A stretch of DNA of 49,682 nucleotides from Clostridiales bacterium. GTDB lineage: Bacteria; Bacillota; Clostridia; Oscillospirales; CAG-272. The position numbers and the translations under genes were made by a program. The stretch spans positions 1 through 49,682 of the forward strand of contig JAEEKG010000037.1 of assembly GCA_016282315.1 (NCBI GenBank), given 5' to 3'. The first letter of the stretch is position 1, and every line of letters begins with the position of its first letter. The notes beneath the pieces are model-generated. The model was not told the DNA's origin. It was given only the letters and a program-made list of their open reading frames with translations, and made no database searches. Shown in pieces: positions 300-49,682 of this stretch.

Positions 300-962
300 A
301 TGGAAATACTGCCCATCGCACATATAGAGAATGGTTTTGAAGAGCTGTTCGGGATTCCCAGACAAAGCGGAATAGCCGAGAGTGTAGTTTCAAGAATAGT
401 TTTCGAAAAAGAATACAGCGATATTAACGCATTCAGAGAATTGGATTCTTTTTCTCATATATGGCTGATCTGGGAGTTCAACCTTGCTGACAAAAAAGAG
501 TGGTCTCCTACGGTCAGACCCCCAAAACTCGGCGGAAACAAAAGGGTCGGCGTATTTGCCAGCAGATCTCCATACAGACCTAACAAATTGGGTCTCTCAT
601 CTGTAAAAATCCTTAAGACGGCGATGGAAGAAAACAACTTTGTAATCTATGTAACAGGGGCAGATCTGGCTGACAAAACCCCAATATTTGACATCAAGCC
701 CTATGTTGTGTATTCTGACTGCCATCCGGATGCCATGACAGGCTTTTCCCTTGACCCTAAAAATGCTGAATATTCTGTTGTTTTCAGTTCAGACGCAAAA
801 GCGGATGAAGAATTGAAAAAAGAGCTGACCGAATTGCTGCAACTCGACCCAAGACCAGGGTACAAAGGCGAAGACAACAACGAGTATAAAATGAAGTACA
901 AGGGGCACGACATAAGCTTTTCAGTTAATGGAAAAGTAATAAATGTATTAACAATTTGTTAA
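300..962 (+). CDS. trmO: tRNA (N6-threonylcarbamoyladenosine37-N6)-methyltransferase TrmO
   Basis: TrmO (YaeB/TsaA family) uses S-adenosylmethionine to methylate N6 of t6A37 in tRNAs reading ACN codons, which helps decoding. The 220-aa protein has the family landmarks: FGIPRQSG near residue 18, SHIWLIWEFN around 52-61, the SAM-binding stretch VFASRSPYRPNKLGLS around residues 85-100, and PIFDIKPYV around 128-136. Length fits the family, which is usually 200-240 aa including a C-terminal extension. The ATG at 300 has AAAGGA nine bases upstream. The stop codon lies inside a short TTAACAA/TTGTTAA palindrome followed by T-rich sequence. Neighbouring genes are not functionally linked to tRNA modification. 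Confidence 0.9.
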   Translation: MEILPIAHIENGFEELFGIPRQSGIAESVVSRIVFEKEYSDINAFRELDSFSHIWLIWEFNLADKKEWSPTVRPPKLGGNKRVGVFASRSPYRPNKLGLSSVKILKTAMEENNFVIYVTGADLADKTPIFDIKPYVVYSDCHPDAMTGFSLDPKNAEYSVVFSSDAKADEELKKELTELLQLDPRPGYKGEDNNEYKMKYKGHDISFSVNGKVINVLTIC

Positions 963-999
963 TTTTACGTTTTTTATATATTTTTATGAAACTTTGTTG

Positions 1000-1005
1000 T
1001 ATAAT
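1000..1005 (+). promoter_or_regulatory. -10 box of the tldD-tldE promoter
   Basis: A perfect TATAAT sits 31 bases before the tldD ATG in a very AT-rich gap. No convincing -35 box is present at 16-18 bp spacing (the sequence there is TATATT), so the promoter call rests on the -10 box alone. Confidence 0.5.
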
Positions 1006-1036
1006 TATGCAGCAATAAAATTGAAAGGAAACAATT

Positions 1037-2431
1037 ATGATAGTATCTAAAACACTGGCTGCAGCAGTTATGAAAGAAGCACTCATGACAGGTGCTGACT
1101 TTGCTGAATTGTATGCACAGGACAAAAAGTCACACGCTATATCTATCTCACATAAAAGAGTTGACACTCTCAAGACAAATGTAACTTATGGCGCAGGAAT
1201 CAGAATAATCCAGGGAGACAAAGTCATTTACGGATACACTTCAGATCTTTCCAAGTCTTCCCTATTGAAACTTGCAAATGAGCTCGCTCAGTCATTTGAC
1301 GGCAAAACTCCGACTGAGCCCAAACCTCTTGTAAAAGTGAGAAATCCCGGAAAGAACAAACCAAAGATTTATCACGACCAGATGACAGATGAAGAAAAAA
1401 TAGCCCAGCTCAGAAAAGCTGAAAAAGTGATGTACGAATACTCTGAATATATTGTAAACGCATCATGCAGCCTGAGCGAAACCGATGAGGTTGTTGAAAT
1501 CTACAACTCCAAGGGCAGATTCGTAACTGACACAAGAATCAGAACCAGACTCGGCATTGCTGCATATGCAGGAAAAGACGGACAGTTCCAGACCGGTTCT
1601 GAAAGACCGGGCGGTCAGTACGGCGATGAAATTTTCCAGATGCACGATGTTGAAAAGCTCGGCAAGAAGGCAGCTAAGTGTGCTGTTGACCTGCTCGATG
1701 CACCTGAATGCCCATCAGGCAAAATGACCGTTATAATAGGCAACGAATTCGGCGGAGTTTTGTTCCACGAAGCATGCGGACACCCGCTTGAAGCAAACGG
1801 TATTTCACACGATGAATCAGTCTTCTGCGGCAAACTCGGTCAGAAGATAGCATCTGACATAGTTTCAGCTGTCGATGACGGAACAATCGAAAACGGTTGG
1901 GGATCATCCAACTTTGATGATGAAGGCAATCCTACAACAAGGAATCAGCTCATCAAAGACGGCGTACTCGTAGGATACATGGTAGATGACTACAACGGCA
2001 AGAGAATAAACATGCCCTCTACAGGCGCCTGCAGACGTCAGTCATACAAATACTGCCCTACTACAAGAATGACAAACACATTCATTGAAAACGGCAAGAG
2101 CACTCCGGAAGAAATAATCAAAGCTACAAAGTTCGGTTTGTACTGCGTTTCATTCAACGGCGGTTCCGTTGATCCAACTACAGACAAATTCAACTTCACA
2201 GCTTCAGAAGCATACATTGTCAAGGACGGCAAGATAGACCATATGGTAAAAGGTGCGTCCCTCATAGGATTCGGTTACGAAGTACTGATGAACATTGATA
2301 TGGTCGGCAACGACTCAGCAAGAGGCCAGGGCATGTGCGGTTCTTCTTCAGGCTCAATTGAAGCAGATGTCGGCCAGCCAACACTGAGAGTTCAGAACAT
2401 GACAGTCGGCGGAAAAGGAGAAAGAATATGA
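1037..2431 (+). CDS. tldD: TldD-type metalloprotease subunit
   Basis: TldD and TldE form a heterodimeric zinc protease that trims unfolded peptides and in some bacteria matures peptide antibiotics or degrades antitoxins. The 464-aa protein has the TldD active-site motif HEACGH at residues 244-249, within EFGGVLFHEACGHPLEA, and the late MCGSSSG stretch near the C terminus that corresponds to the conserved metal-binding Cys region. Length is typical. GAAAGGA lies nine bases before the ATG. The gene overlaps tldE by four bases (ATGA), which indicates translational coupling. No precursor peptide or toxin-antitoxin pair is visible next to it, so a housekeeping peptidase role is the simplest reading. 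Confidence 0.92.
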   Translation: MIVSKTLAAAVMKEALMTGADFAELYAQDKKSHAISISHKRVDTLKTNVTYGAGIRIIQGDKVIYGYTSDLSKSSLLKLANELAQSFDGKTPTEPKPLVKVRNPGKNKPKIYHDQMTDEEKIAQLRKAEKVMYEYSEYIVNASCSLSETDEVVEIYNSKGRFVTDTRIRTRLGIAAYAGKDGQFQTGSERPGGQYGDEIFQMHDVEKLGKKAAKCAVDLLDAPECPSGKMTVIIGNEFGGVLFHEACGHPLEANGISHDESVFCGKLGQKIASDIVSAVDDGTIENGWGSSNFDDEGNPTTRNQLIKDGVLVGYMVDDYNGKRINMPSTGACRRQSYKYCPTTRMTNTFIENGKSTPEEIIKATKFGLYCVSFNGGSVDPTTDKFNFTASEAYIVKDGKIDHMVKGASLIGFGYEVLMNIDMVGNDSARGQGMCGSSSGSIEADVGQPTLRVQNMTVGGKGERI

Positions 2432-3747
2432 ACTTAAACAAATTATTCGAAGCAGCTAAAAAAGCAGGAATTGATCCTTTTGAGATTTCTTACGGTTCAT
2501 CAAAATCCCTGTCTGCAGATATATACAATGACACTCTTGAGCAATATGCATCAAGTAATGACTGCAGCTTCACAGCCAGAGGAATATATCAGGGCAAACT
2601 CGGTTCCTTCTCTTCTGACAAAGTTGACCCAAGCGTAGCTGATGTAATGGTAGAATCCATCATTCAGTCAGCTAAATACGGTCTTGACGGAAATCCTGAA
2701 TTCTTTATTGAAAAAGGTCAGAAATATAAAAAAGTAAACACATATTCCAAATCAGCTGATGAATATCCGGGCAAATGCATGATTGATGTTTCTTTGGATA
2801 TATCCAAAAAAATCCGTGCTTATGACAAGAGAATCCAGATAGCTGAAGTAGGAATGTCCAAGTCTGTTTCAGAGGGCATATTTGCAAACTCCAAAGGTCT
2901 GAAACTCAAAGACAAATCAAGTTATATGGTTATATGGGCATCAACAAAGATTGTTGACGGACAAGATGTTGAAACAGAATTCGAAGTAAAACTTCTTTCG
3001 AACCCTGAAGAACTCAATGCCGATGCATTCGCAAAAGAATTAGCTGAGAAAACAGTTTCAAAACTCGGAGCTGCTCCTATAAAATCCGGAAAATACAATG
3101 TGGTATTTGCTCAGTCATGTGTTGCAAATCTTTTGAGACCTCTTCTCGGACAATTATCTTCATTCTCAGTAAGCCAGCACTTGTCTCTGTTTGAAAACAA
3201 ACTCGGACAGCAGCTTCTCTCTTCAAAGCTTACAATCACGGAAAATCCTTATACAAAGACTCCGTTTGCAAGCAGCTACGACAGAGAGGGTATGCCCAGA
3301 CAAAAGAAAGTTCTTGTCAACAAGGGCAAAGTATCTACATATCTGTACGATCTCGAAATGGCAAAGAAAGACGGAACAGCCTCAACAGGTAACGCTTCAT
3401 TCATCGGTGGTTCAATAAGACCGGGTCTTGGCTTTGTCGAAGTAAAACCGGGAAAGAAATCTTTTGATGAACTTGTAAGTCTTGTCGGAAACGGTGTTTA
3501 TATAGACTCACTTGAAGGTATAGGAACAGGTTACAACACTCAATCGGGTGACTATTCCCTTCAGGCTAACGGATATCTCATCGAGAACGGAAAAATTACA
3601 AAACCCGTTACGCTTATAACCGTAGCAGGAAATGTATTAAAAGACTTTGGCAAGATAATTGCAGTAGGCTCAGATGTAAAACTCCTTACAGGAGCTATTC
3701 AGACTCCTTCAATTGCAATTAAAAAGCTTTCAGTTTCAGGAATCTGA
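2428..3747 (+). CDS. tldE: TldE/PmbA-type metalloprotease partner subunit
   Basis: TldE (PmbA) is the partner of TldD. It shares the fold but lacks the zinc-binding HExxxH motif, and no such motif is seen here. Family features include the TARGIYQGKLGSFSSD region near residue 50, the C-terminal glycine-rich part YIDSLEGIGTGYNTQSGDYS, which resembles the ending of PmbA proteins, and the matching length of 439 aa. Its start overlaps the tldD stop as ATGA and the AAAAGGAG ribosome binding site lies within the end of tldD, so the two subunits should be made in equal amounts. A strong terminator follows at 3764-3800. Confidence 0.9.
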   Translation: MNLNKLFEAAKKAGIDPFEISYGSSKSLSADIYNDTLEQYASSNDCSFTARGIYQGKLGSFSSDKVDPSVADVMVESIIQSAKYGLDGNPEFFIEKGQKYKKVNTYSKSADEYPGKCMIDVSLDISKKIRAYDKRIQIAEVGMSKSVSEGIFANSKGLKLKDKSSYMVIWASTKIVDGQDVETEFEVKLLSNPEELNADAFAKELAEKTVSKLGAAPIKSGKYNVVFAQSCVANLLRPLLGQLSSFSVSQHLSLFENKLGQQLLSSKLTITENPYTKTPFASSYDREGMPRQKKVLVNKGKVSTYLYDLEMAKKDGTASTGNASFIGGSIRPGLGFVEVKPGKKSFDELVSLVGNGVYIDSLEGIGTGYNTQSGDYSLQANGYLIENGKITKPVTLITVAGNVLKDFGKIIAVGSDVKLLTGAIQTPSIAIKKLSVSGI

Positions 3748-3763
3748 TTTCACAAAAAATATA

Positions 3764-3800
3764 ACGAGTAGATGTGTATTGCGTCTACTCGTTTTGTTTT
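3764..3800 (+). terminator. Intrinsic terminator of tldD-tldE
   Basis: ACGAGTAGA (3764-3772) pairs perfectly with TCTACTCGT (3784-3792), and TTTTGTTTT follows. The convergent sirtuin gene ends at 3832, so the hairpin may also protect that side, although the left arm is preceded by A-rich rather than strongly T-rich complement. Confidence 0.85.
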
Positions 3801-3831
3801 ATCTAGGCAAAAATTTGTATAAAAAGAAGAA

Positions 3832-4575
3832 TTACACGTGAAGTTGTGAAAAGACTTGTCCAATAGGCATATTTATCTCAAGATCATTATTTGGATCAAG
3901 ATTATATCTTATGTGCTCTTTGTTGATTATGACTATATGCTTACCTCTGAAATATCCCACATACGAAGCAGCTGGATATACTGTAAGTGATGTTCCTCCG
4001 ATTATGAGGACTTCGGCTTCACTTATTGCATATATGGACTTTTCTACTGCTTTGTACGGCAATTGCTCTTCGTATAGCGTGACATCGCACCTTACCATTC
4101 CTCCGCAAGTGCATCTTGGAATCGGCTCTTTTGAATCGAATATGTAGTCTGAGCCATATTCTTTTCCGCATTTAGAGCAATAGTTTCTCAGGGTAGTTCC
4201 ATGTATTTCATATACCCTTTTACTACCCGCTTTCTGATGCAGCCCATCTATGTTCTGAGTAACAATGGCTCTCAACTTCCCTTTTTCTTCCAATTTGGCA
4301 AGAAACTTGTGGGCATTATTCGGCTCGATGTTTCTTGTGTCCATTTTTTGTCTGTAGAATTCGAAAAAAACTTTAGGTTCATTCACAAGACAGCTGTGGC
4401 TCAGCAAATACTCGGGCCTGTATTGATCAAATCTCACATCGTGCTGATTGTACAGTCCATCCTTGCTCCGAAAGTCCGGAACACCGCTTTCGGTTGAAAC
4501 ACCCGCACCACCGAAAAAGACTATGTCATCTGAAGAGTCTATTATTTCCTGTAATCTTTTGATTGAGTCCTGCAT
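3832..4575 (-). CDS. cobB: NAD-dependent protein deacylase, sirtuin (Sir2/CobB family)
   Basis: Sirtuins remove acetyl or other acyl groups from lysines using NAD+. In this 247-aa protein the NAD-binding motif GAGVSTESGVPDFRS spans about 23-37, QNIDGLH is at 107-113, the catalytic histidine is H125 in HGT, and GTSLTVYPA near 195 closes the NAD pocket. Four cysteines for zinc are C133, C136, C155 and C157. The second pair is C-x-C instead of the more common C-x2-C, a variant also known in other Gram-positive sirtuins. The ATG is preceded by AGAGGGG. The gene is divergent from the lyase-like gene at 4739. Whether it is a deacetylase or a desuccinylase cannot be seen. Confidence 0.9.
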   Translation of the reverse strand: MQDSIKRLQEIIDSSDDIVFFGGAGVSTESGVPDFRSKDGLYNQHDVRFDQYRPEYLLSHSCLVNEPKVFFEFYRQKMDTRNIEPNNAHKFLAKLEEKGKLRAIVTQNIDGLHQKAGSKRVYEIHGTTLRNYCSKCGKEYGSDYIFDSKEPIPRCTCGGMVRCDVTLYEEQLPYKAVEKSIYAISEAEVLIIGGTSLTVYPAASYVGYFRGKHIVIINKEHIRYNLDPNNDLEINMPIGQVFSQLHV

Positions 4576-4676
4576 ATTCTTCCCCTCTGTTCATTCATTC
4601 CAAGGATATTTTACACCCTTTTTCGGGCAAAAGATAGAATTGGTTGAAAATATGTTAAATAAATCTAAAATCAATG

Positions 4677-4705
4677 TTGAATAAAAATTTTTCTTATGCT
4701 ATAAT
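4677..4705 (+). promoter_or_regulatory. Sigma-70-type promoter of the lyase-like gene
   Basis: TTGAAT (4677-4682) and TATAAT (4700-4705) are separated by exactly 17 bp. Transcription would start near 4712, which rules out the upstream GTG at 4709 as a start codon and supports the ATG at 4739. Confidence 0.8.
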
Positions 4706-4738
4706 TCCGTGAATTTTGACAAAGGTGGATTTAATATC

Positions 4739-6457
4739 ATGTTAGATCACTATGAAGCAGCCAGAAAGTGCCTTGACAGTTGCGTAAAAGGATTCGTAAG
4801 CGAAATGAATTATGACAATCCAAACGCATATAATTATCTGACTTTTTCTCCTCTGGTTGCAATTACACATGACAGTCACATAGACAAGAACATCATCACA
4901 AACAGTGCAGCTATTCTTTGGAGTTTGTACTATATAGAAGACTTAGAGTACTACAAAAATGAAGACTGCCTCAAGAAAGCATTGCAGGTTTTTAAAGAAG
5001 TATATGGTGCAATGTATTCCGATGGTACATTTGATAACTATATAACAAACTTCCATGATCCGGCGCATTCAGGTTTTGTCATAGAAGGAGCCGCTGAAAT
5101 ACTCGAATTCTGCTACAGCAGGATGGGTAACACTCCAATCGAGCTTGAACTCAAGGAATTAACGCTGGACTATGTCAATAAACTAGCTCATGCAATATGT
5201 AATTTTGGCTTCCACACGCCAAACCACAGATGGGTACAATGTGCTGCTCTTTCGTTTGCTTACAAGTATCTTAAATGCCCTGAGTTCTTAGAGAGAATCA
5301 ACAAATTCTTTGCTGAGGGCATAGATTGTGATGAAAACGGCGAATACACTGAGAGATCAGCCGGAAACTACAGCAGGATCTGCGACTGTTCATTCATGAT
5401 GTATTCTCATTTTTCAAACACAACAGATAAATATGAATATGTCAGAAGAAACTTAAATCTCGTCCTCAGTTATATCGAACCGGATAATACAATCATGTCT
5501 TTGAATTCAACAAGACAGGATGTGGGCTTCAACTCAAACATAAGCATATACTACAAGGAATTCCTTGAACTCGCAATAATAGATGAAAATCCTTACTATG
5601 CCTGGATGTGCGATGAAATTGTGAGAAACAACAATGGTCTGTCGTCAACCTATCTTTCTTATTATATGCTCGCAAACTCGCCTGAATATATTGAAAAAAT
5701 GCGCAGGATTGATTCTAAACCTATACCTAAAGACAGATCAAGATTCTTGCCCGAAAGCCTCATATACAGAAAATACATTCCAAAGTGGAATGCAACATGT
5801 TCTGTGATTGGCGGACCATTGACACCATACTTTTTCAAGCTCCAGTTCGGAAAGCACAGAGTGTTCGGAAGAATTGCAAGTTCTTTCTTTGGTGAACCTC
5901 ACAGCAAATTCCGTCCGCAAACATTAGAGGAAAACCCTGATGGCTCATTTACTCTTACTTCAGTGGAATCACAAGGATACAGAACCCCACTAGAAGAGCC
6001 TCAAGGAACCCCTTATTGGAGACATATGGACCATTCCAAACGTGAATGGACAAATATACAAACATTAATCCGTAAAACCACCTTCCGTTTCGAAGAAGAT
6101 GAAATAGTCATAGATGTATCTGCTGAAAAAACAGATAATGTTCCATGCAAATTGGAATTTGTGTTTGTTCCTGAACCAAATGCATTCTTTTTGTCAGACG
6201 ATATAGACATAGGATTAAAAGCAGGATACTATATTGTGGGAACACACGAGTTCAAGGTTATTTACGGAATAAGCGAGCCCTGCATTTCCATTTCAGGATG
6301 CAAATACGAGCACAGATATGCAGAAACAATGAAAGGGTCAGAACCTTATGACGGAAAAACTTTTGTTGTTGCATCAACTTTCCTCTCTCCTTCTCAATAT
6401 CAGGTGAGAATTAAATTCCACAAAGTACCTCTTCACGACTGGTCAAAAGAAAATTAA
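4739..6457 (+). CDS. Putative alpha/alpha-toroid polysaccharide lyase-like or heparinase-like protein
   Basis: I do not recognise a precise family. The start is taken at ATG 4739 (572 aa) because AAAGGTGG lies ten bases upstream and a promoter -10 box ends at 4705. There is no signal peptide, so the protein is probably cytosolic. The N-terminal two thirds are helical and rich in aromatic residues, with motifs such as FHTPNHRWVQ near 165 and TERSAGNYSRICD near 210. This Asn-His-Arg and Tyr-Arg pattern is what alpha/alpha-toroid uronate lyases and heparinase II/III relatives show. The last third looks like a beta-sandwich. A cytosolic enzyme acting on imported uronate-containing oligosaccharides is an inference; an unsaturated glucuronyl hydrolase-like role is also possible. 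Confidence 0.45.
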   Translation: MLDHYEAARKCLDSCVKGFVSEMNYDNPNAYNYLTFSPLVAITHDSHIDKNIITNSAAILWSLYYIEDLEYYKNEDCLKKALQVFKEVYGAMYSDGTFDNYITNFHDPAHSGFVIEGAAEILEFCYSRMGNTPIELELKELTLDYVNKLAHAICNFGFHTPNHRWVQCAALSFAYKYLKCPEFLERINKFFAEGIDCDENGEYTERSAGNYSRICDCSFMMYSHFSNTTDKYEYVRRNLNLVLSYIEPDNTIMSLNSTRQDVGFNSNISIYYKEFLELAIIDENPYYAWMCDEIVRNNNGLSSTYLSYYMLANSPEYIEKMRRIDSKPIPKDRSRFLPESLIYRKYIPKWNATCSVIGGPLTPYFFKLQFGKHRVFGRIASSFFGEPHSKFRPQTLEENPDGSFTLTSVESQGYRTPLEEPQGTPYWRHMDHSKREWTNIQTLIRKTTFRFEEDEIVIDVSAEKTDNVPCKLEFVFVPEPNAFFLSDDIDIGLKAGYYIVGTHEFKVIYGISEPCISISGCKYEHRYAETMKGSEPYDGKTFVVASTFLSPSQYQVRIKFHKVPLHDWSKEN

Positions 6458-6470
6458 AAAAATTAACTAT

Positions 6471-6517
6471 CGAGTGTGACATTAACTGCAATAGTGCCAC
6501 ACTCGATTTTGTTTTAC
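6471..6517 (+). terminator. Intrinsic terminator of the lyase-like gene
   Basis: ATCGAGTGTG (6471-6480) pairs perfectly with CACACTCGAT (6500-6509), followed by TTTGTTTT. It ends the lyase-like transcription unit 14 bases after the stop codon. Confidence 0.85.
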
Positions 6518-6541
6518 CCTAAAAAAACACGGTATATTGCC

Positions 6542-6609
6542 CCGTTTTGTTTGCGTTTTTCACATAAAATGCCCGTTTTGTTGATTTTCACCGTTTTGAG
6601 AGTTAATAT
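6542..6609 (+). promoter_or_regulatory. Promoter with three CCGTTTTG repeats upstream of the lipoprotein gene
   Basis: A promoter is suggested by TTGATT (6581-6586) and TAATAT (6604-6609) with 17 bp between them. CCGTTTTG occurs at 6542-6549, 6573-6580 and 6591-6598. The third copy lies inside the promoter spacer and the second abuts the -35 box, as expected for a regulator binding site. The repeat sites are seen directly; an operator function is inferred. Confidence 0.45.
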
Positions 6610-6641
6610 GTGATCAATGAATACGAAGGAGGTTTTTACGA

Positions 6642-7118
6642 ATGAAACGAATTATCTGTTTATTTTTTGTTTTCTGTCTTTCATTGTGCTTAATTTCCTG
6701 TACGGGACAGAATGCAGAAAACCATTACTACCAAAATGGCTATCTCAAGTGTAATGAGATGCAACTTTACACTGATGTCGAACAGTTTTACATGTCTTCA
6801 TCCATGCTTTCTTCTATAAGGGCAAACATACAAAATAAGGAGTATGGAAATAGGATTCTCTCTGCTATTGGAAATGTTAGGGCTGTAAAAATTGATTGGA
6901 ATGATGAATTGATAGACAACGACAAACTACAACAAGTATTTGTCAATGGAATACAGATTAATTTTTCTGAATTTGCTCTTTTCATCGGGACCGATGGAAC
7001 AGTCGTTTTGCGGGATTCAGATTGCGCATATATAACTGAGAGTTTTGCTGTCGATTACAATGCGATTAAAAATATGTGCAAAGAAATTGCAACAAAATCT
7101 GATCAATTGTTTTACTGA
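6642..7118 (+). CDS. Hypothetical lipoprotein
   Basis: The 158-aa product begins with a typical lipoprotein signal: basic MKR, a hydrophobic stretch and the lipobox LISC with Cys20, so the mature protein of about 139 aa should be lipid-anchored on the outer face of the membrane. AAGGAGG lies nine bases before the ATG. The mature part has no motif that I recognise. It contains a stretch with a single FIGTDGTVVLRDSD beta-like segment near residue 115. It has its own promoter and a strong terminator at 7140-7190, so it is monocistronic. Function unknown. Confidence 0.75.
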   Translation: MKRIICLFFVFCLSLCLISCTGQNAENHYYQNGYLKCNEMQLYTDVEQFYMSSSMLSSIRANIQNKEYGNRILSAIGNVRAVKIDWNDELIDNDKLQQVFVNGIQINFSEFALFIGTDGTVVLRDSDCAYITESFAVDYNAIKNMCKEIATKSDQLFY

Positions 7119-8865: not shown

Positions 8866-8890
8866 ATAGTCGATTATGGAGGTTATGAGA

Positions 8891-10207
8891 ATGAATTTGG
8901 GTAGAGAAAATGAAACATTGGAATTTAAGGAATCAACAGCAGAATTTGATAGAGCATGTAAAGCTATTGTAGGTATGCTTAATAAATCAGGATATGGAAC
9001 TGTTTATTTCGGAGTTAAAGATAGTGGTGATGTTATAGGTGTAATTATAGGAAAAGATACACTATCAACATTAACAGATCGAATTAAAGATTCAATTAAA
9101 CCAAGTATTTATCCTTTAGTGTTAGAAGAAAAATATGGTGATAAATCAGTCATTAAAGTTACTTTTAAAGGAAATAATAAACCATATGCATATAAAGGTT
9201 CATTTTATATTAGAGTTGAACAGCAAAATTTACCAATTGATCCTCTTGTGATTAGAGAACTTATAAAATCTAGTCAAGAATATAATGATAATTGGGAAAA
9301 AGAACCATCAATATATGGTTTAGAATATGTTGATGAGGAAGCTCTTGATTTATATTATAGACAAGCTGTAGCAATGGGAAGAATTAATAAATATGATCAT
9401 ACTTCTGAGGAATTATTAACGCAGCTTGGCTTATTAATTGATGGAAAGTTAACAAATGCAGGATATTATTTATTTGGCAAAAACGCTTCCCTAGTGTATA
9501 AAGCTGTTGTTTATCCAACTACTGATAGAATTAATCCAATAGATTTGAAAAGATTTGAAAATAATATTTTTAATTTGATAAATCAAGTAATTGGTTTTAT
9601 TAATGAAAAAATGAGTTGGAGAGTTGAAATCAATAAATTGCAAAGAACAGAGATTCCAGAAATACCAGTAGTTGCTATAAGAGAAATAGTTATTAATTCT
9701 CTTGTTCATTCTGATTTTTATGGAGACTCAGAGCATCAAGTGACTTTTGATCCTGAATGTGTTGAAATTTATAATCCGGGAGATTTCGGAGAATACACAC
9801 CTCTTGATTATGTTAATAGTACACTACCATCAAGAACTAGACATAAAATCATTCAAGGCATACTATATAAAGCTTTTGATATCGAAACTCTCGGCAGAGG
9901 ATTAAAAAGGACAGATTTGTTTTGTAAAAAAGCTGATGTTAAATGGAGTTTTACAAAATATTCTTTTGGTTTTTCTTTCAAGTTCTATAGAAAAAAACAA
10001 GATTTTGATGATGACTTATCATCAAATGCAAAGACAATATTGAATTATATGAATCATAATGATGGTATATTACATAGTATCATTGAAGCATCAAAAATAT
10101 TAGGACAAAAAGAAAGAAGTGCATATAGTTATCTAGATGAACTGACAAAAAAAGGCAAAATTATAAGAATAGGGTCAAGAAAAAAAGGATATTGGAAAGT
10201 ATTGTAG
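8891..10207 (+). CDS. AlbA_2 (Schlafen-type) ATP-binding putative transcriptional regulator, AT-rich
   Basis: The longest frame begins at ATG 8876, but the GGAGG at 8878-8882 lies inside it and fits the ATG at 8891 (8-base spacing), giving 438 aa. The N terminus has the AlbA_2 pattern: ENETLEFKES, then GTVYFGVKDSGDVIGV, then FYIRVEQQNLPI. The central part carries the ATPase-like AIREIVINSLVHSDFYGD and ETLGRGLKRTD, and the end is a winged-helix-like stretch finishing SRKKGYW. It is a distant paralogue of the 7353 gene. Its codons (TTA, ATA, AGA, GAT, AAT) are far more AT-rich than the neighbours, which suggests recent transfer. The seven-unit repeat just upstream is probably its operator. Confidence 0.8.
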   Translation: MNLGRENETLEFKESTAEFDRACKAIVGMLNKSGYGTVYFGVKDSGDVIGVIIGKDTLSTLTDRIKDSIKPSIYPLVLEEKYGDKSVIKVTFKGNNKPYAYKGSFYIRVEQQNLPIDPLVIRELIKSSQEYNDNWEKEPSIYGLEYVDEEALDLYYRQAVAMGRINKYDHTSEELLTQLGLLIDGKLTNAGYYLFGKNASLVYKAVVYPTTDRINPIDLKRFENNIFNLINQVIGFINEKMSWRVEINKLQRTEIPEIPVVAIREIVINSLVHSDFYGDSEHQVTFDPECVEIYNPGDFGEYTPLDYVNSTLPSRTRHKIIQGILYKAFDIETLGRGLKRTDLFCKKADVKWSFTKYSFGFSFKFYRKKQDFDDDLSSNAKTILNYMNHNDGILHSIIEASKILGQKERSAYSYLDELTKKGKIIRIGSRKKGYWKVL

Positions 10208-16706: not shown

Positions 16707-17012
16707 AAATAGGATACAAAATCAGACCATGCAGCGCCAATCGACAAAGCGAATATACGCGTTATCGCAGTTCTTGCTCCAGACAGGCACGCCTGCGGCA
16801 CATCCAAAAATCCACTTAATGCTGCTCTGTCCCCAGCCTGACATGGTTCATGGCATTGAATTGCGCAGGACCCATCCTTCAACACAAAAAGCATACGACA
16901 CAGGCCGCACATTCGTGAGCCTCAAGAGTGCATTCACCCCTGCTGTAGCGGATTGCAGGTTCAGGGCACCGCTATCTCCCCAGTTAGCATGGCCTGATTT
17001 TGTATCCTATTT
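16707..17012 (-). ncRNA. ffs: Signal recognition particle RNA, large Gram-positive type
   Basis: Read on the minus strand, the two ends form a long stem in which about 25 bases at 16988-17012 pair with 16707-16732 (core GGATACAAAATCAG and its complement). Inside are hallmarks of large bacterial SRP RNAs: GCGGTGCCC and CAATCCGC of the Alu domain, GGGTCCTGCGCAA, CATGAACCATGTCAGG and AGCAGCATTAAGTG of helix 8, then GATGTGCCGCAGG. The helix 8 tip reads CTG-GGGA-CAG, a GNRA tetraloop flanked by the symmetric and asymmetric loops that bind Ffh. The exact ends are uncertain by some bases. Short frames seen across this stretch are not genes. Its protein partner Ffh is encoded at 23264. Confidence 0.93.
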
Positions 17013-42985: not shown

Positions 42986-45900
42986 TCAGTCATGCTTTTT
43001 CAAGTGAATATCAGGCAATATTATCGCACTTTCTGATTCATCGTTTTCGCCCTTCCAAGCGACTATGAATCTAATTTCGGCATAAGAAACAATGTAATGA
43101 TTCTCTTTTAATTCTTCAATTTGTTCAATTGCCTTTTTTGATAACTTTGCAACGACTATATTCCTTCCGTTAATACACGCAAAGAAACTACCTTCTTTAT
43201 AATCAAGACTTGAGCCACTGCGAAGCTGCAAAACTTCTTTTGTAATATTCTTAAAAAAGCCCAAATTTACGTCTCGATGGGATAGTTGAAGAGTAATCTC
43301 ATTAGGTTCTTGATACTCATTTTCATCTGTATGGTAAACGGCGCCGGTAAGCCTGAATCTGTCGAAAAAAGCATTTACATAATGGACGTACAAGGCATGT
43401 TTAGCACGTGTAAATCCCACATAAACAGCTCTCTTCGTCTTTTCATCATAGAGATTCATATTATTTGACAGAATCATATAGACCGAATCAAATTCTCTTC
43501 CTTTTGATTTGTGGATAGTTGATACAATAATTGCGGAGTTTTCTATGTCATAAAAATCTTCAAGTTTAGATTCGTTAATGAATTCTTCAAAATCTGTGCG
43601 GTATTTTTTTGTGTTCAATGCTGAAAAAGTATTAATCATCTTCAAAACCAAAGGAAGACATTTACTATCAGCGTAATATTCTTTTAGTTTATCAACCGAA
43701 TTATTCCACACTTGATCTGAAACAATTGGTGTAAATTGTTCTTTCTTAATTGCAGTTATAAAGAATCGTATTTCAGCAAGATTATACAAATTGAAATCAT
43801 CATTTGATTGAATCAATTTTGCCTGCATCCCATTTTCAATCAACAACCCCATTACCATCAGAGCCTCTTCGTTCGTTGATGTAAGAATGCACGTTTTTTC
43901 TCCATGATAATTATCTTTGACTTGATTGACTACTGATATTTCAAAGTTGCCCTTAGCGTGTTTTGTTAGTTCAACAATTCCATCTTCTCTAGATACCGCA
44001 ATAATTGGATTGTGTTTCATCCTATTGGGAATGTATTCTGCAAAGGAATTAGAAAATCTAACCAATTTTTCATCACTTCTATAATTGTCCAACAATTCAT
44101 ATTGTTTTGCGTCAAAATTGGTAATCAGAGCCTTAAGATTTCCAGAATTAGAACCTCTAAACTCATATATATTCTGGTCGTCATCACCAACGGCGATAAC
44201 TCTCATGTCCTCATTTTTGGACATAAGTGAACAAACAAGATTGAATTCATTCTGATCCATATCTTGTGCTTCATCAATAACTAAAACAGTTTTTGTTATT
44301 CTGCCAATTTCAACTTCGCCGTTATAAATCATCTCTGCTGCTTTTTGCACCACCTCATTGGATTCCAGTAAATTACCTATTTTCCCCAAAAGATCAAAAC
44401 AATACGAGTGAAATGTTTTGATTTCAACAAAATGAGCTGCATTCCCAATTAGATTAATCAGACGACTTTTAAATTCAGTTGCTGCAGCTCTTGAAAAAGT
44501 CAACATTAGCAATTGCTCGCTTTTGACGTCTTCAAGTAAAAGTAGAGAGGCTAATTTGTGGACAAGAACTCTCGTTTTGCCACTGCCAGGACCTGCGATA
44601 ACAGCTATATATTTTGAAGTGTCATCTCTTATTATTTCAGCTTGTGTTTCTGACAAACTTCCAAATAATTTGTCGTATTTTTCCGGAGTTATGTTTCTAT
44701 TTATTTCACCTGCTCGGTTTCCCTTAAAATACTTTGCAATAAAAGGCCTGTATTCCATAACAAAGTAGTCGTTTACGAACTGGAGTGCTTCGTTATAATC
44801 CTTCAGCATCATGTTTGCATATTGACCCACAATATGAATCTGCTGAATTCTGTTTTGATAGAAATCATTTAGTTGTTTGTAATCTTCAACTTTGTATCTG
44901 ATTTTGTTATCAAGCACTTTTCTGTCAATTGACAATCCGTTATAGAGAACAAGAAAACCTCCTTCAATGTTCAGTGCACCGATTTTAGACAAATACAATA
45001 ATGCATCTTCAATTTCTTTTGTTGAACAATCCGAATAATCGTTGAACATAGAAATCCTCGATTTGTAATTATCTTTTAATTCAAGAAGCGAAAATTCAAC
45101 CAATACCTCTTCTTTGGCATTAGGAGATGAGCCGTTCGATTTGTCGAACAGATATTGAACTATAAATGAAGCGATTTCGCACCTTTTGTTTATGCGAGCC
45201 TCCATTTTCTTTTTTTCCAAAGATGGAAAAACCATTGTCTGTTTTTCATTTGCATCCGTGTTCTTTTTTATGTAATTCTTTATTGTCCAGTAATACAGAA
45301 TAGTCTTAATGTTTCTGACCGTTGGATTCTTCACTCCAATTTTAATAGCACTGTCATTTATTTCTTTATAGTTAATGTCCTGAACTTCGCCTGTAAGCTT
45401 TGATGCCAGGTATTTTTCCAATTCACAGAAATTCGTAAGAATCTGAATTGATTTATTCTGAGTCTCAGTTCGTTTTATATATGCTGACATATCCATAGAA
45501 TCTGACAAAATGCCTTCTTCTCGCATGAGATTTACTGATGTAATGACATCCTCTTTATCAATTCCGAGAATATCAGCAAGATAATCAACTCTTGACTCTG
45601 CTTCCGCATTTCCAGCTTGAGCTATGCTTCTTGCGGAAATCAATGATTTTACTATACGCTTTGAATCTGTTTTTTGTTTTTCATCGAATCTCGGTGATGC
45701 TTCAATAGCGCGAGCAGCTTCTTCCATGTTGCGGGCCATAATACTGTTGGCATAAACCTTGGGAACATTTCTGCCTCTTTCCACATAGCCAGCATTTTCA
45801 AGAGCAGCAATCGCTGTTCTTACACGTGTTTCAACATCTACTGTTCCTTCATCCCATCCCGCAAGTTTGGCTATTTCCAGTGCCGATCGGCATACACTTG

Positions 45901-47788
45901 AATGAGTTTTGGTTAAATCTTTTATCGCCTTCCATACTTGTTGTATTTCACTGATACTCAGTTTGGTCTGGTTCAAAAGCATAAAGTGTTTGTTAAGGTC
46001 ATCTTCATTGAACAAAACATAACAGTCAGCTTGAATATTCTGATCTCTGCCTGCCCTTCCTGCCTCCTGCACATAATTCTCAAGTGAGTCAGATATTTCA
46101 TAATGAACAACAAGTCCAACGTCCTTTTTATCTACACCCATACCAAAAGCTGATGTGGCTACTATTACCTTTATTCTGTTAGCAATAAAGGCATCCTGAT
46201 TCTCTATTTTTTCCGAGCTGTCCATTTTGCCATTAAAAGGTTTGGCAGGATATCCGTCAATTGTCAATTTTTCTGCAAGATCTCTTGTCATCTTTGTTCT
46301 TGAAACATATACAATTGTTGGGCAATCCTTTTGTTCGATAAGAGACCTCAATGTTGTATACTTTTCTTCATCGTTTTCTTTGTGCAAAACTACATAGTGA
46401 AGATTAGTTCTTGTGGCATTTGTCGTATATAAATCGAGTTCAATATTCAGTTTTTGTCTAAAATAATCCCGAATATCGCTAATTACTTTTTGTTTAGCTG
46501 TCGCAGTGAAACACGAAACGGGTATTCCATGCTCAAGGTTCTTTTCTTTGATATAATTTCGTATAAAGTCCCCAATATACATGTAATCAACTCTAAAATC
46601 CTGTCCCCATGCAGAGAAACAGTGTGCTTCATCGATGACAAAACGAACGACATTTCTTGACAATAGCAGTCTTTCAATCGTTCTCGATCTAAGTGATTCA
46701 GGAGATATATACAAAATAGATGCCATGCCGCTGGCAACACGTTCAATTGCCTCTGCGCGCTCGATTTGACTAAGAAGTCCATTTATTGTTACTGCATCAA
46801 CAATTCCTTTTTGAGCCAAATTATCAACCTGGTCTTTCATCAGCGACTGCAATGGAGAAACAACAACTGTAAGTCCCCTAGACGTCTCTCCTGCCATTAA
46901 TGCCGGAAGCTGGAATGTTATAGACTTCCCTCCTCCTGTTGGGAATATAGCAAGCAAGGACTTTCCGCTAACCGCTGCCTTTGCTGCCATCTCCTGAAGT
47001 GGCTCTCCATTATATGTTCGGAATGAATCATAACTAAAGTAATCCTTCAGCTTTTTTTGAACATCTAAACTCTTGTTACAATACTCGCATCCTTCTGAAC
47101 ATGGAGTCTCCCTCAATTGTCTAATCACATTTTCAACGTATGGGTAGTTACGATAAACCCATGGAGGAGTCATAGAATACTTTTCAGTTGCTGATATGAT
47201 GGCCAAAGCATATGCCAATTCAACAGGATGTTTATATATTATGGAAGATATATCCGCATTCTTGCATATTTTTCCCGAAAACGTGTTTCGTATTTCACTC
47301 TCAAGGCTGCTCATTGAGAAAAAGAACCCAACATAGTCGAAAAACCCATGAAAATACTCATTTTTGTGGAGCAAATCATAGAAGATATGCTTCATTGATG
47401 AAGGAAGCTTTTGATAAGCGTTAACTTCATCATAAAATAGTTCCATGGCTTTAATAGCATCGTTGACCGGGTTATTCAATTGTTCTGATATAATCTTGTC
47501 ATCTTTTACAAGGTTATGGTATGGTTTGTTCGGAAACAATAGTGGAGAAAGATACAGTGTATCTACCGGAAGACAGTTTTTTTCGCCAAAAACGTTACCA
47601 CAATACTTAAGATCATGGTTTATGATATTGTGCCCACATACATATCGTACTCCTTGAGCAAACAATGAAAACTGTGCCTTTGATTTTGTATGCATGACAA
47701 TATTACGGTCCTTCACAGCACCATAATCTATTATTCTCGGTTCGCTTTCACTCACTTCTAAATCAATAAAAACTATCTCTTTGCCCAT
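42986..47788 (-). CDS. Exonuclease-like/RecQ/UvrD fusion helicase
   Basis: The 1600-aa protein joins three DNA-acting parts. Residues 1-125 resemble a DEDD 3'-5' exonuclease: FIDLEV (D9, E11), GHNIINHD (53-59) and a D near 110. A Cys trio C230-x3-C234-x2-C237 precedes the RecQ part. RecQ (about 250-610) has Walker A TGGGKS (284-289), DEAH (386-389), SFTAT-like CFTAT and the motif VI segment QEAGRAGRDQ. A long helical middle follows. The UvrD-type helicase (about 1040-1480) has GPGSGKT (about 1060), VIDEAQDMDQ, VGDDDQNIYEFRGS and the end motif YVGFTRAKHAL. The start has no strong ribosome binding site. It is the last of three genes and AT-rich. Confidence 0.88.
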   Translation of the reverse strand: MGKEIVFIDLEVSESEPRIIDYGAVKDRNIVMHTKSKAQFSLFAQGVRYVCGHNIINHDLKYCGNVFGEKNCLPVDTLYLSPLLFPNKPYHNLVKDDKIISEQLNNPVNDAIKAMELFYDEVNAYQKLPSSMKHIFYDLLHKNEYFHGFFDYVGFFFSMSSLESEIRNTFSGKICKNADISSIIYKHPVELAYALAIISATEKYSMTPPWVYRNYPYVENVIRQLRETPCSEGCEYCNKSLDVQKKLKDYFSYDSFRTYNGEPLQEMAAKAAVSGKSLLAIFPTGGGKSITFQLPALMAGETSRGLTVVVSPLQSLMKDQVDNLAQKGIVDAVTINGLLSQIERAEAIERVASGMASILYISPESLRSRTIERLLLSRNVVRFVIDEAHCFSAWGQDFRVDYMYIGDFIRNYIKEKNLEHGIPVSCFTATAKQKVISDIRDYFRQKLNIELDLYTTNATRTNLHYVVLHKENDEEKYTTLRSLIEQKDCPTIVYVSRTKMTRDLAEKLTIDGYPAKPFNGKMDSSEKIENQDAFIANRIKVIVATSAFGMGVDKKDVGLVVHYEISDSLENYVQEAGRAGRDQNIQADCYVLFNEDDLNKHFMLLNQTKLSISEIQQVWKAIKDLTKTHSSVCRSALEIAKLAGWDEGTVDVETRVRTAIAALENAGYVERGRNVPKVYANSIMARNMEEAARAIEASPRFDEKQKTDSKRIVKSLISARSIAQAGNAEAESRVDYLADILGIDKEDVITSVNLMREEGILSDSMDMSAYIKRTETQNKSIQILTNFCELEKYLASKLTGEVQDINYKEINDSAIKIGVKNPTVRNIKTILYYWTIKNYIKKNTDANEKQTMVFPSLEKKKMEARINKRCEIASFIVQYLFDKSNGSSPNAKEEVLVEFSLLELKDNYKSRISMFNDYSDCSTKEIEDALLYLSKIGALNIEGGFLVLYNGLSIDRKVLDNKIRYKVEDYKQLNDFYQNRIQQIHIVGQYANMMLKDYNEALQFVNDYFVMEYRPFIAKYFKGNRAGEINRNITPEKYDKLFGSLSETQAEIIRDDTSKYIAVIAGPGSGKTRVLVHKLASLLLLEDVKSEQLLMLTFSRAAATEFKSRLINLIGNAAHFVEIKTFHSYCFDLLGKIGNLLESNEVVQKAAEMIYNGEVEIGRITKTVLVIDEAQDMDQNEFNLVCSLMSKNEDMRVIAVGDDDQNIYEFRGSNSGNLKALITNFDAKQYELLDNYRSDEKLVRFSNSFAEYIPNRMKHNPIIAVSREDGIVELTKHAKGNFEISVVNQVKDNYHGEKTCILTSTNEEALMVMGLLIENGMQAKLIQSNDDFNLYNLAEIRFFITAIKKEQFTPIVSDQVWNNSVDKLKEYYADSKCLPLVLKMINTFSALNTKKYRTDFEEFINESKLEDFYDIENSAIIVSTIHKSKGREFDSVYMILSNNMNLYDEKTKRAVYVGFTRAKHALYVHYVNAFFDRFRLTGAVYHTDENEYQEPNEITLQLSHRDVNLGFFKNITKEVLQLRSGSSLDYKEGSFFACINGRNIVVAKLSKKAIEQIEELKENHYIVSYAEIRFIVAWKGENDESESAIILPDIHLKKHD

Positions 47789-47853
47789 TTTTTATCCAAT
47801 CATATACCAATAATGCTACCAACAACTGTTTCGTGATAGCTTAATGTGTTACT

Positions 47854-48390
47854 TTATACTGAGTTATAAAGATCTTTTAAATATTGCTTTATTCTCTTCC
47901 ATAATGAAGGCTTTTTAATTGTATCGGATTTATTATAATTGTTTTTTTCAACCACGGGTTTTACACCTAGTTGCGTTTGATTATTCATTTTTTTATCAGA
48001 GAGATTATTCTTTTCAGCCTCTTCACGTTTTTTTCTTCGTTCATCTGCAAGGCGTTGCTTTTCCAATTCCTCTTGTTTTCTCAGAATTGAAAGTGGATCT
48101 TCCGAAGAAAACAATCTGTTATAAAACTCATTTAGACAATCATAATCACTTTCTTCACATATATCTGAATCATATCCAACTTCATGGGCAAGTTGATTCC
48201 GTACCCATCGCATATGTTTCAGCCTTTCATAATCAATTTGCCATGAGTCAACATACCTAACGCCTTTTATGTTGTTGGATTCCATCATGCGAATATATGC
48301 AGATACTCCTTCACTTACCAAATAAGCATCTTTTATGAATTTATCTACTTTTTTATACAGATCCAAAAAATCAATGTTCAATTCTCTCAT
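47854..48390 (-). CDS. HEPN-like protein with RNxxxH motif and basic amphipathic tail
   Basis: The 178-aa protein has RWVRNQLAHEVGYD, where R64-N65-x3-H69 fits the Rx4-6H active motif of HEPN RNases, followed by a conserved-looking acidic segment and LNEFYNRLFSSEDPLSILRK. Residues 105-135 form a charged coiled coil, and the end KKPSLWKRIKQYLKDLYNSV is a basic amphipathic helix that could touch membrane or nucleic acid. HEPN proteins often act as RNases in toxin-antitoxin and defence systems, but many such small proteins are uncharacterised. It lies between the 255-aa gene and the fusion helicase (65-base gap). Confidence 0.6.
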   Translation of the reverse strand: MRELNIDFLDLYKKVDKFIKDAYLVSEGVSAYIRMMESNNIKGVRYVDSWQIDYERLKHMRWVRNQLAHEVGYDSDICEESDYDCLNEFYNRLFSSEDPLSILRKQEELEKQRLADERRKKREEAEKNNLSDKKMNNQTQLGVKPVVEKNNYNKSDTIKKPSLWKRIKQYLKDLYNSV

Positions 48391-48514
48391 TGTTATATCT
48401 CTTTAATTCCAAATACAATCTAATACTAATTGTTATTTCACATTTCTCTGCAAAGAACCAATTTCTTATCAAAGGCATGTAGGTGTCTCACGGACACCTT
48501 TATGTTGCGTAGTT

Positions 48515-49282
48515 TCAATCATTAATTAATCCAAGCTTTTTTAGTCTAGCTCGTATCCCACCATAAGATCTTTTAAGTAATGCTGCAATTTCGGATATTG
48601 ACGTTTTATTGTTAAACAAATCCACCAATAATACTTCTTGTTCTCTCGTCCACGGAGCTCCTTGCATATCTTCAATAACAACACTTGGTTCTATAGGTGT
48701 GTTTTCACTTTTTAACTCTTTTGTTGAATTGTTTATTACTATTATTTCGTCCATATGGTCAATGATAAATTGTTGAGAATACTGGTTAAACAAATTAACA
48801 AAATACGTTCCGTATTGTCCACTTCTCTCTTTTCGAGTTATTCCCAATAATGATCCTTGCATTGTAGGTGTCTTATACTTTTTGTCATCAGAAGATGATA
48901 CTTCTTCTAATAATTCTTTGCTTACAAGGAATGCATTGATACTTGCACTTTTAAGTTTCGAACGATTTGTCATATCAACAAGCATATTTATCTTATTGGC
49001 AATTTCACTTACTGGAATTGGAGCGATGTCAAATACATATTTTGACAACTGTTCTTTGGTGATAGAAAAAGGCTCTTTAACCGTCCTTTTCTGATACCCT
49101 ACCATACCATTGTTATCAATAACTTTTCCTATTATGTTTGCAGAATACAAAAGACATCTGGATATTCTAACTTGGTTAATACATTCGGAATCCGGAACCA
49201 GTTCATTCGTTAATGGATTAATTCCGTTTGCCAGTTTTTCCAAATACAATTTTGCATATTTCATTGTTTCCAAATCAGTCAT
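48515..49282 (-). CDS. Uncharacterised 255-aa protein with SANT/HTH-like C terminus
   Basis: I cannot assign a named family. The N-terminal half has a distinctive block, YLEKLANGINPLTNELVPD, then INQVRISRCLLYSANII, which looks like a helical domain recurring next to helicase-type genes. The last 45 residues, WTREQEVLLVDLFNNKTSIS and ALLKRSYGGIRARLKKLG, look like a SANT/GcrA-type DNA-binding helix-turn-helix. A middle segment has a serine-rich loop. AGGGGAAA lies before the ATG. It is the first gene of the three-gene module, so it may target or regulate the module. Confidence 0.55.
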   Translation of the reverse strand: MTDLETMKYAKLYLEKLANGINPLTNELVPDSECINQVRISRCLLYSANIIGKVIDNNGMVGYQKRTVKEPFSITKEQLSKYVFDIAPIPVSEIANKINMLVDMTNRSKLKSASINAFLVSKELLEEVSSSDDKKYKTPTMQGSLLGITRKERSGQYGTYFVNLFNQYSQQFIIDHMDEIIVINNSTKELKSENTPIEPSVVIEDMQGAPWTREQEVLLVDLFNNKTSISEIAALLKRSYGGIRARLKKLGLIND

Positions 49283-49682
49283 TTTGTCTATTTCCCCTTT
49301 AAAATCTTGATTTCAACTCATTAGATTAATAAAGTGTTTAGATGTAATCATGTACTTTATTGTCTTATTGTCCATGTTTTTTATATCACAAAGCAAGTCA
49401 GAATGTTATTGATTTGTCAAATTATAATAATTTTGCAGATATCTCTAGCTTCTTTTATTGTAATAATCATCTCGGTTAAGTTTTAGCTTAACATGCGGTT
49501 CCGTCTCACCGGAACATTCACCCAAGTACTCATGATATCTAGGCTCGGACACCCGTGACTTCAGTCGTGGGAGGAGAGCCTTACCTCCTGTGTTAATGTT
49601 GTGTTTGTGTGTTCCAACAAACGTATGTTTTTCCACGATACAAATGGATGCACTTTTGTTCCATCTATCAATCTGAGGTCAA
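49283..49682. other. AT-rich gap and right window edge
   Basis: From 49283 to about 49440 the sequence is very AT-rich, with no convincing promoter for the minus-strand module (TTGACA on the minus strand near 49420 lacks a matching -10 box). From 49445 the composition changes to a transposon-end-like segment described separately. Confidence 0.5.
49445..49682 (-). mobile_element. Possible end of an IS200/IS605-type element with structured hairpin
   Basis: A nested hairpin occupies about 49541-49580: GGCTC and GAGCC form the outer stem and CCCGTGACT with AGTCGTGGG the inner one around a GACTTCAGTC core. Such ACTTCAGT/ACTGAAGT hairpins mark IS605-family ends and their TnpB guide RNAs. On the minus strand a frame is open from the window edge (49680) to a TGA at 49561-49563 inside the hairpin, reading DLRLIDGTKVHPFVSWKN; another frame from 49678 or GTG 49636 runs to 49445. 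Neither can be assigned. The plus-strand RNA folds better because two mismatches become G-U pairs. The element extends off the window. Confidence 0.35.

Follow-up and report, generated by a model that had tools for sequence, protein, structure and literature searches.

In animals, the single chain of the Werner helicase (WRN) combines a RecQ helicase with a DEDD exonuclease on its N-terminal side; the exonuclease is of the DEDDy class and the protein has RQC and HRDC domains. The same arrangement is found in W1600, a protein encoded in the DNA described here, and WRN belongs to the RecQ relatives with solved structures. The two differ in that W1600 has an Asn in exonuclease motif III, no RQC or HRDC domain found by Pfam, and a second helicase, a complete UvrD, after the RecQ. 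Bacillus DinG, like W1600, is an exonuclease fused to a helicase (PMC12525004), but the DinG helicase is XPD-type, whereas the second helicase of W1600 is a UvrD. In Thermus HB27 a DnaQ-DinG-RecQ fusion combines an exonuclease with RecQ (PMC1274311); this is the nearest published relative of the W1600 architecture.

The gene next to that of W1600 encodes W178, a member of Pfam family DUF6548. The HEPN superfamily is defined by an Rx4-6H motif with a polar residue after the arginine, and HEPN fusions with SF1 and SF2 helicases are known (PMC3710099). With named members of this superfamily (HepT, RiboL-PSP-HEPN, DUF4145) DUF6548 shares an RNxxxH motif, an all-helical prediction (of low confidence) and a profile chain through a HEPN-CBS family, but its matches to them fall below the Pfam cut-offs and it has a C-terminal membrane or amphipathic helix of its own.

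Among defence systems, PsyrTA/RqlHI and Dpd come into view, as W1600 strongly hits the PADLOC models of DpdF and PsyrT with its RecQ core. Membership in either was rejected because only the helicase core matches, and neither a phosphoribosyltransferase partner nor Dpd genes are present among the neighbours. No complete named PADLOC gene set is found at the locus: W1600 matches with its helicase cores only, and W178 and the third gene, W255, match no model. The sequence-only reading had known of no named system with this composition, and we likewise found no publication; a search that reached only a minority of subscription papers returned no description of an exonuclease-RecQ-UvrD protein.

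The locus and its edges

The window, i.e. the whole 49,682-nucleotide stretch that was analysed, is the entire contig C61 of a 1.9 Mb genome in 110 contigs. The features discussed below are as follows.

42986-47788, minus strand: W1600, 1600-aa exonuclease-RecQ-UvrD protein (ORF, Pfam, TIGR00614)
43364-44671, minus strand: UvrD/PcrA-like SF1 core of W1600, residues 1040-1475 (PF00580, PF13361)
45881-47053, minus strand: RecQ core of W1600, residues 247-636 (TIGR00614, alignments)
47078-47101, minus strand: likely zinc knuckle of W1600, Cx3Cx2C (C230, C234, C237; alignment)
47414-47788, minus strand: DEDD-like exonuclease domain of W1600 (D9, E11, D59, D110; motif III N105xPxxD110)
47854-48390, minus strand: W178, 178-aa HEPN-like protein, Pfam DUF6548 (ORF, PF20185)
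48184-48201, minus strand: R64-N65-Q-L-A-H69, predicted HEPN Rx4H active site of W178 (invariant columns)
48481-48499, no strand: inverted repeat AGGTGTC-GACACCT between W255 and W178
48515-49282, minus strand: W255, 255-aa protein (ORF), with an N-terminal domain (residues 1-60), a winged-helix-like region (about 70-183) and a SANT/Myb-like tail (about 207-252)
48527-48664, minus strand: SANT/Myb-like, putatively DNA-binding tail of W255, residues 207-252 (phrog_323, E 1.7e-9)
49530-49682, minus strand: 3' end of an IscB-type insertion element; the IscB C-terminus reaches to about 49561 and is followed by the end of the element

The three genes lie in the same direction as previously placed, with gaps of 124 bases between W255 and W178 and 65 bases between W178 and W1600. 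The cluster is also more AT-rich than its surroundings, as had been claimed (G+C 35.1%, compared with 39.6% for the other large genes in the window). The inverted repeat in the longer gap is not followed by a T-run on the minus strand and is therefore no obvious intrinsic terminator for the operon, which we infer the three genes to form. Elsewhere in the window, a Schlafen AlbA_2 protein (8876-10207) has a G+C content of 28.5%, far below that of its neighbours.

The window terminates at 49682 inside an insertion element that reads as IscB-type from its ORF sequence. The last 153 bases of the window are repeated at 97-100% identity on contigs C93 and C44 of the same genome (G000), the latter of which holds a complete 445-aa IscB-like ORF (L212, 1385-2722, plus strand) whose 3' end corresponds to the last bases of the window. 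The IscB stop codon is located about 280 bases upstream of the cluster start, and the element forms the upstream boundary of the cluster. An RNA at this edge was considered and dropped, as no Rfam match exceeded the gathering score and the repeat is the end of the IscB gene. A bacterial large SRP RNA gene lies at 16727-16992 (172 bits).

The exonuclease-RecQ-UvrD protein

As judged from its sequence, W1600 certainly contains both a RecQ and a UvrD helicase core, which bears out the double helicase described in the sequence-only reading. The RecQ part scores 267 bits with TIGR00614 (cut-off 219.8), with intact motifs PTGGGKS, DEAHC and QEAGRAGRD. The UvrD part matches PF00580 (5.9e-32) and PF13361 (1.7e-16), its motifs AGPGSGKT, DEAQD and VGDDDQ are intact and the core qualifies as SF1A. 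RQC and HRDC domains gave no Pfam match at E values up to 1.

The nuclease is a more graded case. In an alignment of 29 homologues from four phyla, D9xE11, GHN-x4-D59 and N105xPxxD110 are kept in at least 95% of the sequences, and all four DEDD acids are present in the N-terminus of W1600. Asn105 of motif III replaces the catalytic His (DEDDh) or Tyr (DEDDy) in nearly every aligned homologue. After this domain, the Cx3Cx2C motif is conserved in the family. Profile comparison of the exonuclease domain gives a weak match (E 0.065) to chains that carry DEDD-type motifs and are annotated as exodeoxyribonuclease III. A three-sequence AF2 model of the N-terminus (pLDDT 70, pTM 0.71) has the order beta-beta-beta-alpha-beta-alpha-beta-alpha, and its best solved Foldseek matches are mostly DEDD exonuclease domains, including the proofreading domains of DNA Pol II and phi29 polymerase, EXD2 and RNase AS (E 0.02-0.1). 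Motifs and model thus lend moderate support to a DEDD-type exonuclease fold. Hence, the proposal of a DEDD-like nuclease stands as regards the four acids and gains some support from the profile and fold matches, while motif III has neither the His nor the Tyr of the described classes. The W1600 family appears to be a WRN-like fusion of a nuclease with two helicases, widespread among bacteria and unusual in its active site.

The family occurs in 5 of 295 genomes of the host's order, without a homologue in any other sampled member of the taxonomic family to which the window belongs, and in 24 of 391 genomes of the class. The nearest homologue (77% identity) comes from a different order, homologues from the same order being only about 60% identical. 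More distant ones are found in Bacteroides plasmid records (54%), Aliarcobacter (35%) and alpha- and gammaproteobacterial plasmids (about 30%), which gives a patchy range over Clostridia, Bacteroides, Campylobacterota and Proteobacteria. A scan of the genome contigs revealed only two close relatives, and searches of viral contigs found relatives of neither W1600 nor DUF6548. In the tree of the family the Bacteroides copies nest within a clostridial clade. By these sequence comparisons, the W1600 gene is patchy and transferred across phyla.

By inspection of 34 loci, most contain a single W1600-family gene amid housekeeping genes, and its position is the same within two genera (G464/G524 and G603/G439). 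No PADLOC family had more than one match among the 115 proteins encoded up to two genes from the 34 homologues. From the housekeeping surroundings and the lack of PADLOC enrichment it follows that W1600 alone is not a typical defence-island gene.

The small partners: DUF6548 and W255

W178 is a DUF6548 protein (PF20185, E 4.8e-39), a family for which a literature search covering a minority of subscription papers returned no published description. None of the 14 members in one alignment deviates at R64, N65 or H69, nor does any sequence in an alignment of 18 rows, and R64-N65-x3-H69 satisfies the Rx4-6H definition (PMC3710099). A single-sequence AF2 model is all-helical at a confidence too low for a structure search (pLDDT 49, pTM 0.26), and direct matches of DUF6548 to named HEPN families are weak. 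Direct hhalign comparison with DUF4145 and RiboL-PSP-HEPN sets aligned only the surroundings of the motif and was not significant; the link runs through HEPN-CBS proteins. One of these is encoded directly downstream of an exonuclease-RecQ-UvrD gene in locus L165 (2236-2970) and has RNAIIH in its N-terminal domain, which the DUF6548 profile matches at 6.8e-5. Between DUF6548 and the HEPN-CBS domain family, hhalign gave a probability of 95.8% (E 6.6e-9, 83 columns). Of 11 members of the HEPN-CBS domain family, five in turn match HEPN_RiboL-PSP (best 0.002) and two match HepT; the top PDB matches of the family are HepT toxins (E 0.06-0.13). This profile chain supports the assignment of DUF6548 to the HEPN superfamily, with a predicted RNase activity, in line with the HEPN-like, possible RNase seen earlier in the RNxxxH motif of W178; a domain of unknown function would thereby gain a place among the HEPN RNases.

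In most DUF6548 proteins the C-terminus is a hydrophobic helix of membrane-like character. W178 has a charged linker and a basic C-terminal helix of clearly amphipathic character; its closest relative (L127_07, 49% identity) also has a basic C-terminal helix. The gene of this relative is the last in an operon (L127, 2214-8730) behind a UvrD-zinc-ribbon helicase and an SF2 helicase with PLD nuclease and DUF3427, which looks like another uncharacterised helicase/HEPN cluster of the defence type. Large ORFs with sub-cut-off DUF6548 matches aligned with the linker and C-terminal part of the model.

The Pfam matches of W255 itself are weak (F-93 winged helix, HTH_24, Myb); in its family, Myb (0.017) and Sigma70_r4 (0.0004) are each matched by one member. 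Only the N-terminal ca. 185 residues are common to most of about 30 aligned homologues. The SANT-like tail recurs in L085_05 (49% over the full length) and in MT838620, a faecal phage-like contig. The suggestion of a DNA-binding SANT tail is therefore backed by its recurrence in relatives, whereas Pfam gives it weak support.

In three further loci the helicase gene has a W255-like gene as its immediate upstream neighbour: L158 (gap of 64 bp), L083 and L040 (overlap). Including the window, the pair exists in four loci, which belong to one supported clade of 11 members in the W1600 tree. On this tree the adjacency requires three label changes, i.e. either several gains or a single gain followed by losses. 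As a W255 homologue is present somewhere in 38 of the order's 295 genomes, adjacency in 3 of about 22 other loci by chance is negligible, with ca. 0.01 or less expected by our own estimate. In L083 (G247; 812-6665) the pair lies behind a ResIII helicase whose N-terminus weakly matches an REase (MTES_1575), and the RecQ-UvrD gene is split into two frames in the assembly.

Other W255-like genes adjoin known defence systems. One is flanked by Septu PtuA/PtuB on one side and a UvrD helicase on the other (L215), one is found right behind Druantia type I DruE1 (L216) and two next to the type I restriction subunit HsdR (L086, L180). Further examples lie beside a cytosine methyltransferase and a GHKL ATPase (L085) and beside a UPF1-like helicase and Fic (L098); in L086 and L215, UvrD-zinc-ribbon helicases adjoin the W255 homologues. 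Yet W255 matches no PADLOC model and is hence no defined component of the systems that it adjoins. Many homologues, the more distant ones, have ordinary chromosomal surroundings. Altogether, this suggests that the W255 family is a DNA-binding accessory protein common to several defence-island systems; as it travels with several unrelated ones, it is a candidate for a common accessory factor or regulator.

Function and cohesion of the cluster

We tentatively favour, at somewhat less than an even chance, an accessory cluster that spreads horizontally and has at its core a WRN-like nuclease-helicase, which would act in antiviral defence or in the processing of foreign DNA and is accompanied by accessory genes. 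The two 3'-to-5' motors of W1600 would load on forked, gapped or end-exposed DNA, presumably that of replicating phages, plasmids or transposons; as they unwind it, the DEDD-like domain would cut back the 3' strand. W255 may assist as a DNA-binding partner or act as a regulator; genes of this type are also seen beside Septu, Druantia and type I restriction systems. The DUF6548 protein would be an add-on RNase, possibly membrane-peripheral, which might stop growth if the attack on DNA fails; a coupling to W1600 is assumed. For this mobile cluster we counted the intact helicase motifs, the four DEDD acids in 29 homologues and the exonuclease fold match, the patchy distribution across phyla, the AT-rich DNA and the neighbouring IscB element, the recurrent W255/helicase pair and the W255-like genes beside defence systems, and, finally, DUF6548 behind helicases in L127 and HEPN-CBS downstream of the helicase in L165. 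Against it we counted that the helicase is mostly single among housekeeping genes, that PADLOC families are not enriched, that neither DUF6548 (beyond the window) nor HEPN-CBS (beyond chance) tracks the helicase, that W255 homologues mostly have ordinary surroundings and that the exonuclease is missing its catalytic His or Tyr. An antiphage role is plausible and unproven. The more specific idea of an immune system not described before, in which W1600 attacks invading DNA, DUF6548 is the suicide effector and W255 a general accessory factor, appears rather unlikely.

Alternatively, W1600 may be the functional counterpart of WRN or DinG in bacteria, an accessory DNA-repair or anti-recombination enzyme acting alone on stalled forks and recombination intermediates, with the small genes incidental. 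Such a stand-alone repair enzyme, which is almost as likely as the mobile nuclease-helicase and equally tentative, would account for the single genes with housekeeping flanks in most of the 34 loci, their constant place in two genera, the missing PADLOC enrichment among the 115 flanking proteins and the parallels in architecture with WRN (exonuclease and RecQ) and DinG (DEDD and helicase; PMC12525004). The very patchy distribution, with transfer across phyla and plasmids, is however unusual for core repair, and the partner that recurs directly upstream within a clade is linked to defence elsewhere.

The sequence-only reading had proposed a three-gene module, from which the W255/helicase pair remains, with adjacency in four loci, but not the HEPN gene, as the DUF6548 and W1600 families occur together only in the window's genome among the 295 of the order. 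HEPN-CBS was rejected as a regular helicase partner, since this family (19 of the 391 genomes of the class) co-occurs with the W1600 family in one genome, compared with ca. 1.2 expected. A conserved three-gene system was dropped too, all three genes being found together in no other locus. Single-gene homologues at core positions, named earlier as evidence against a module, are what most genomes show for the helicase, but not what is seen for its W255 partner. The co-occurrence counts thus indicate that W255 and the helicase form a recurrent unit which the HEPN gene joins occasionally; the cluster is probably a loose, mobile assembly rather than a fixed three-gene system, and large helicases may draw on a pool of interchangeable small partners.

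In another reading, the locus would hold two unrelated units, the W255/helicase pair and an inserted stand-alone DUF6548 gene for a toxin-like or stress RNase that serves a separate function. The closest relative, L158, has the pair with its 64-bp gap and no HEPN gene, and many genomes of the order have DUF6548 but no helicase, the protein often ending in the C-terminal membrane helix. We nevertheless consider two units improbable, given the common strand and short gaps in the window, the closest DUF6548 homologue right behind the helicase operon of L127 and the second HEPN gene adjoining a W1600-family helicase in L165. Least probable is a role in the maintenance or transfer of mobile elements, such as element replication or plasmid stability, instead of immunity: most chromosomal copies lie outside recognisable elements, and integrase, relaxase and replication genes are absent from this part of the window. 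In its favour are the IscB element beside the cluster and the plasmid-borne homologues, which adjoin parA/parB in L044 or lie near mobile genes in L042.
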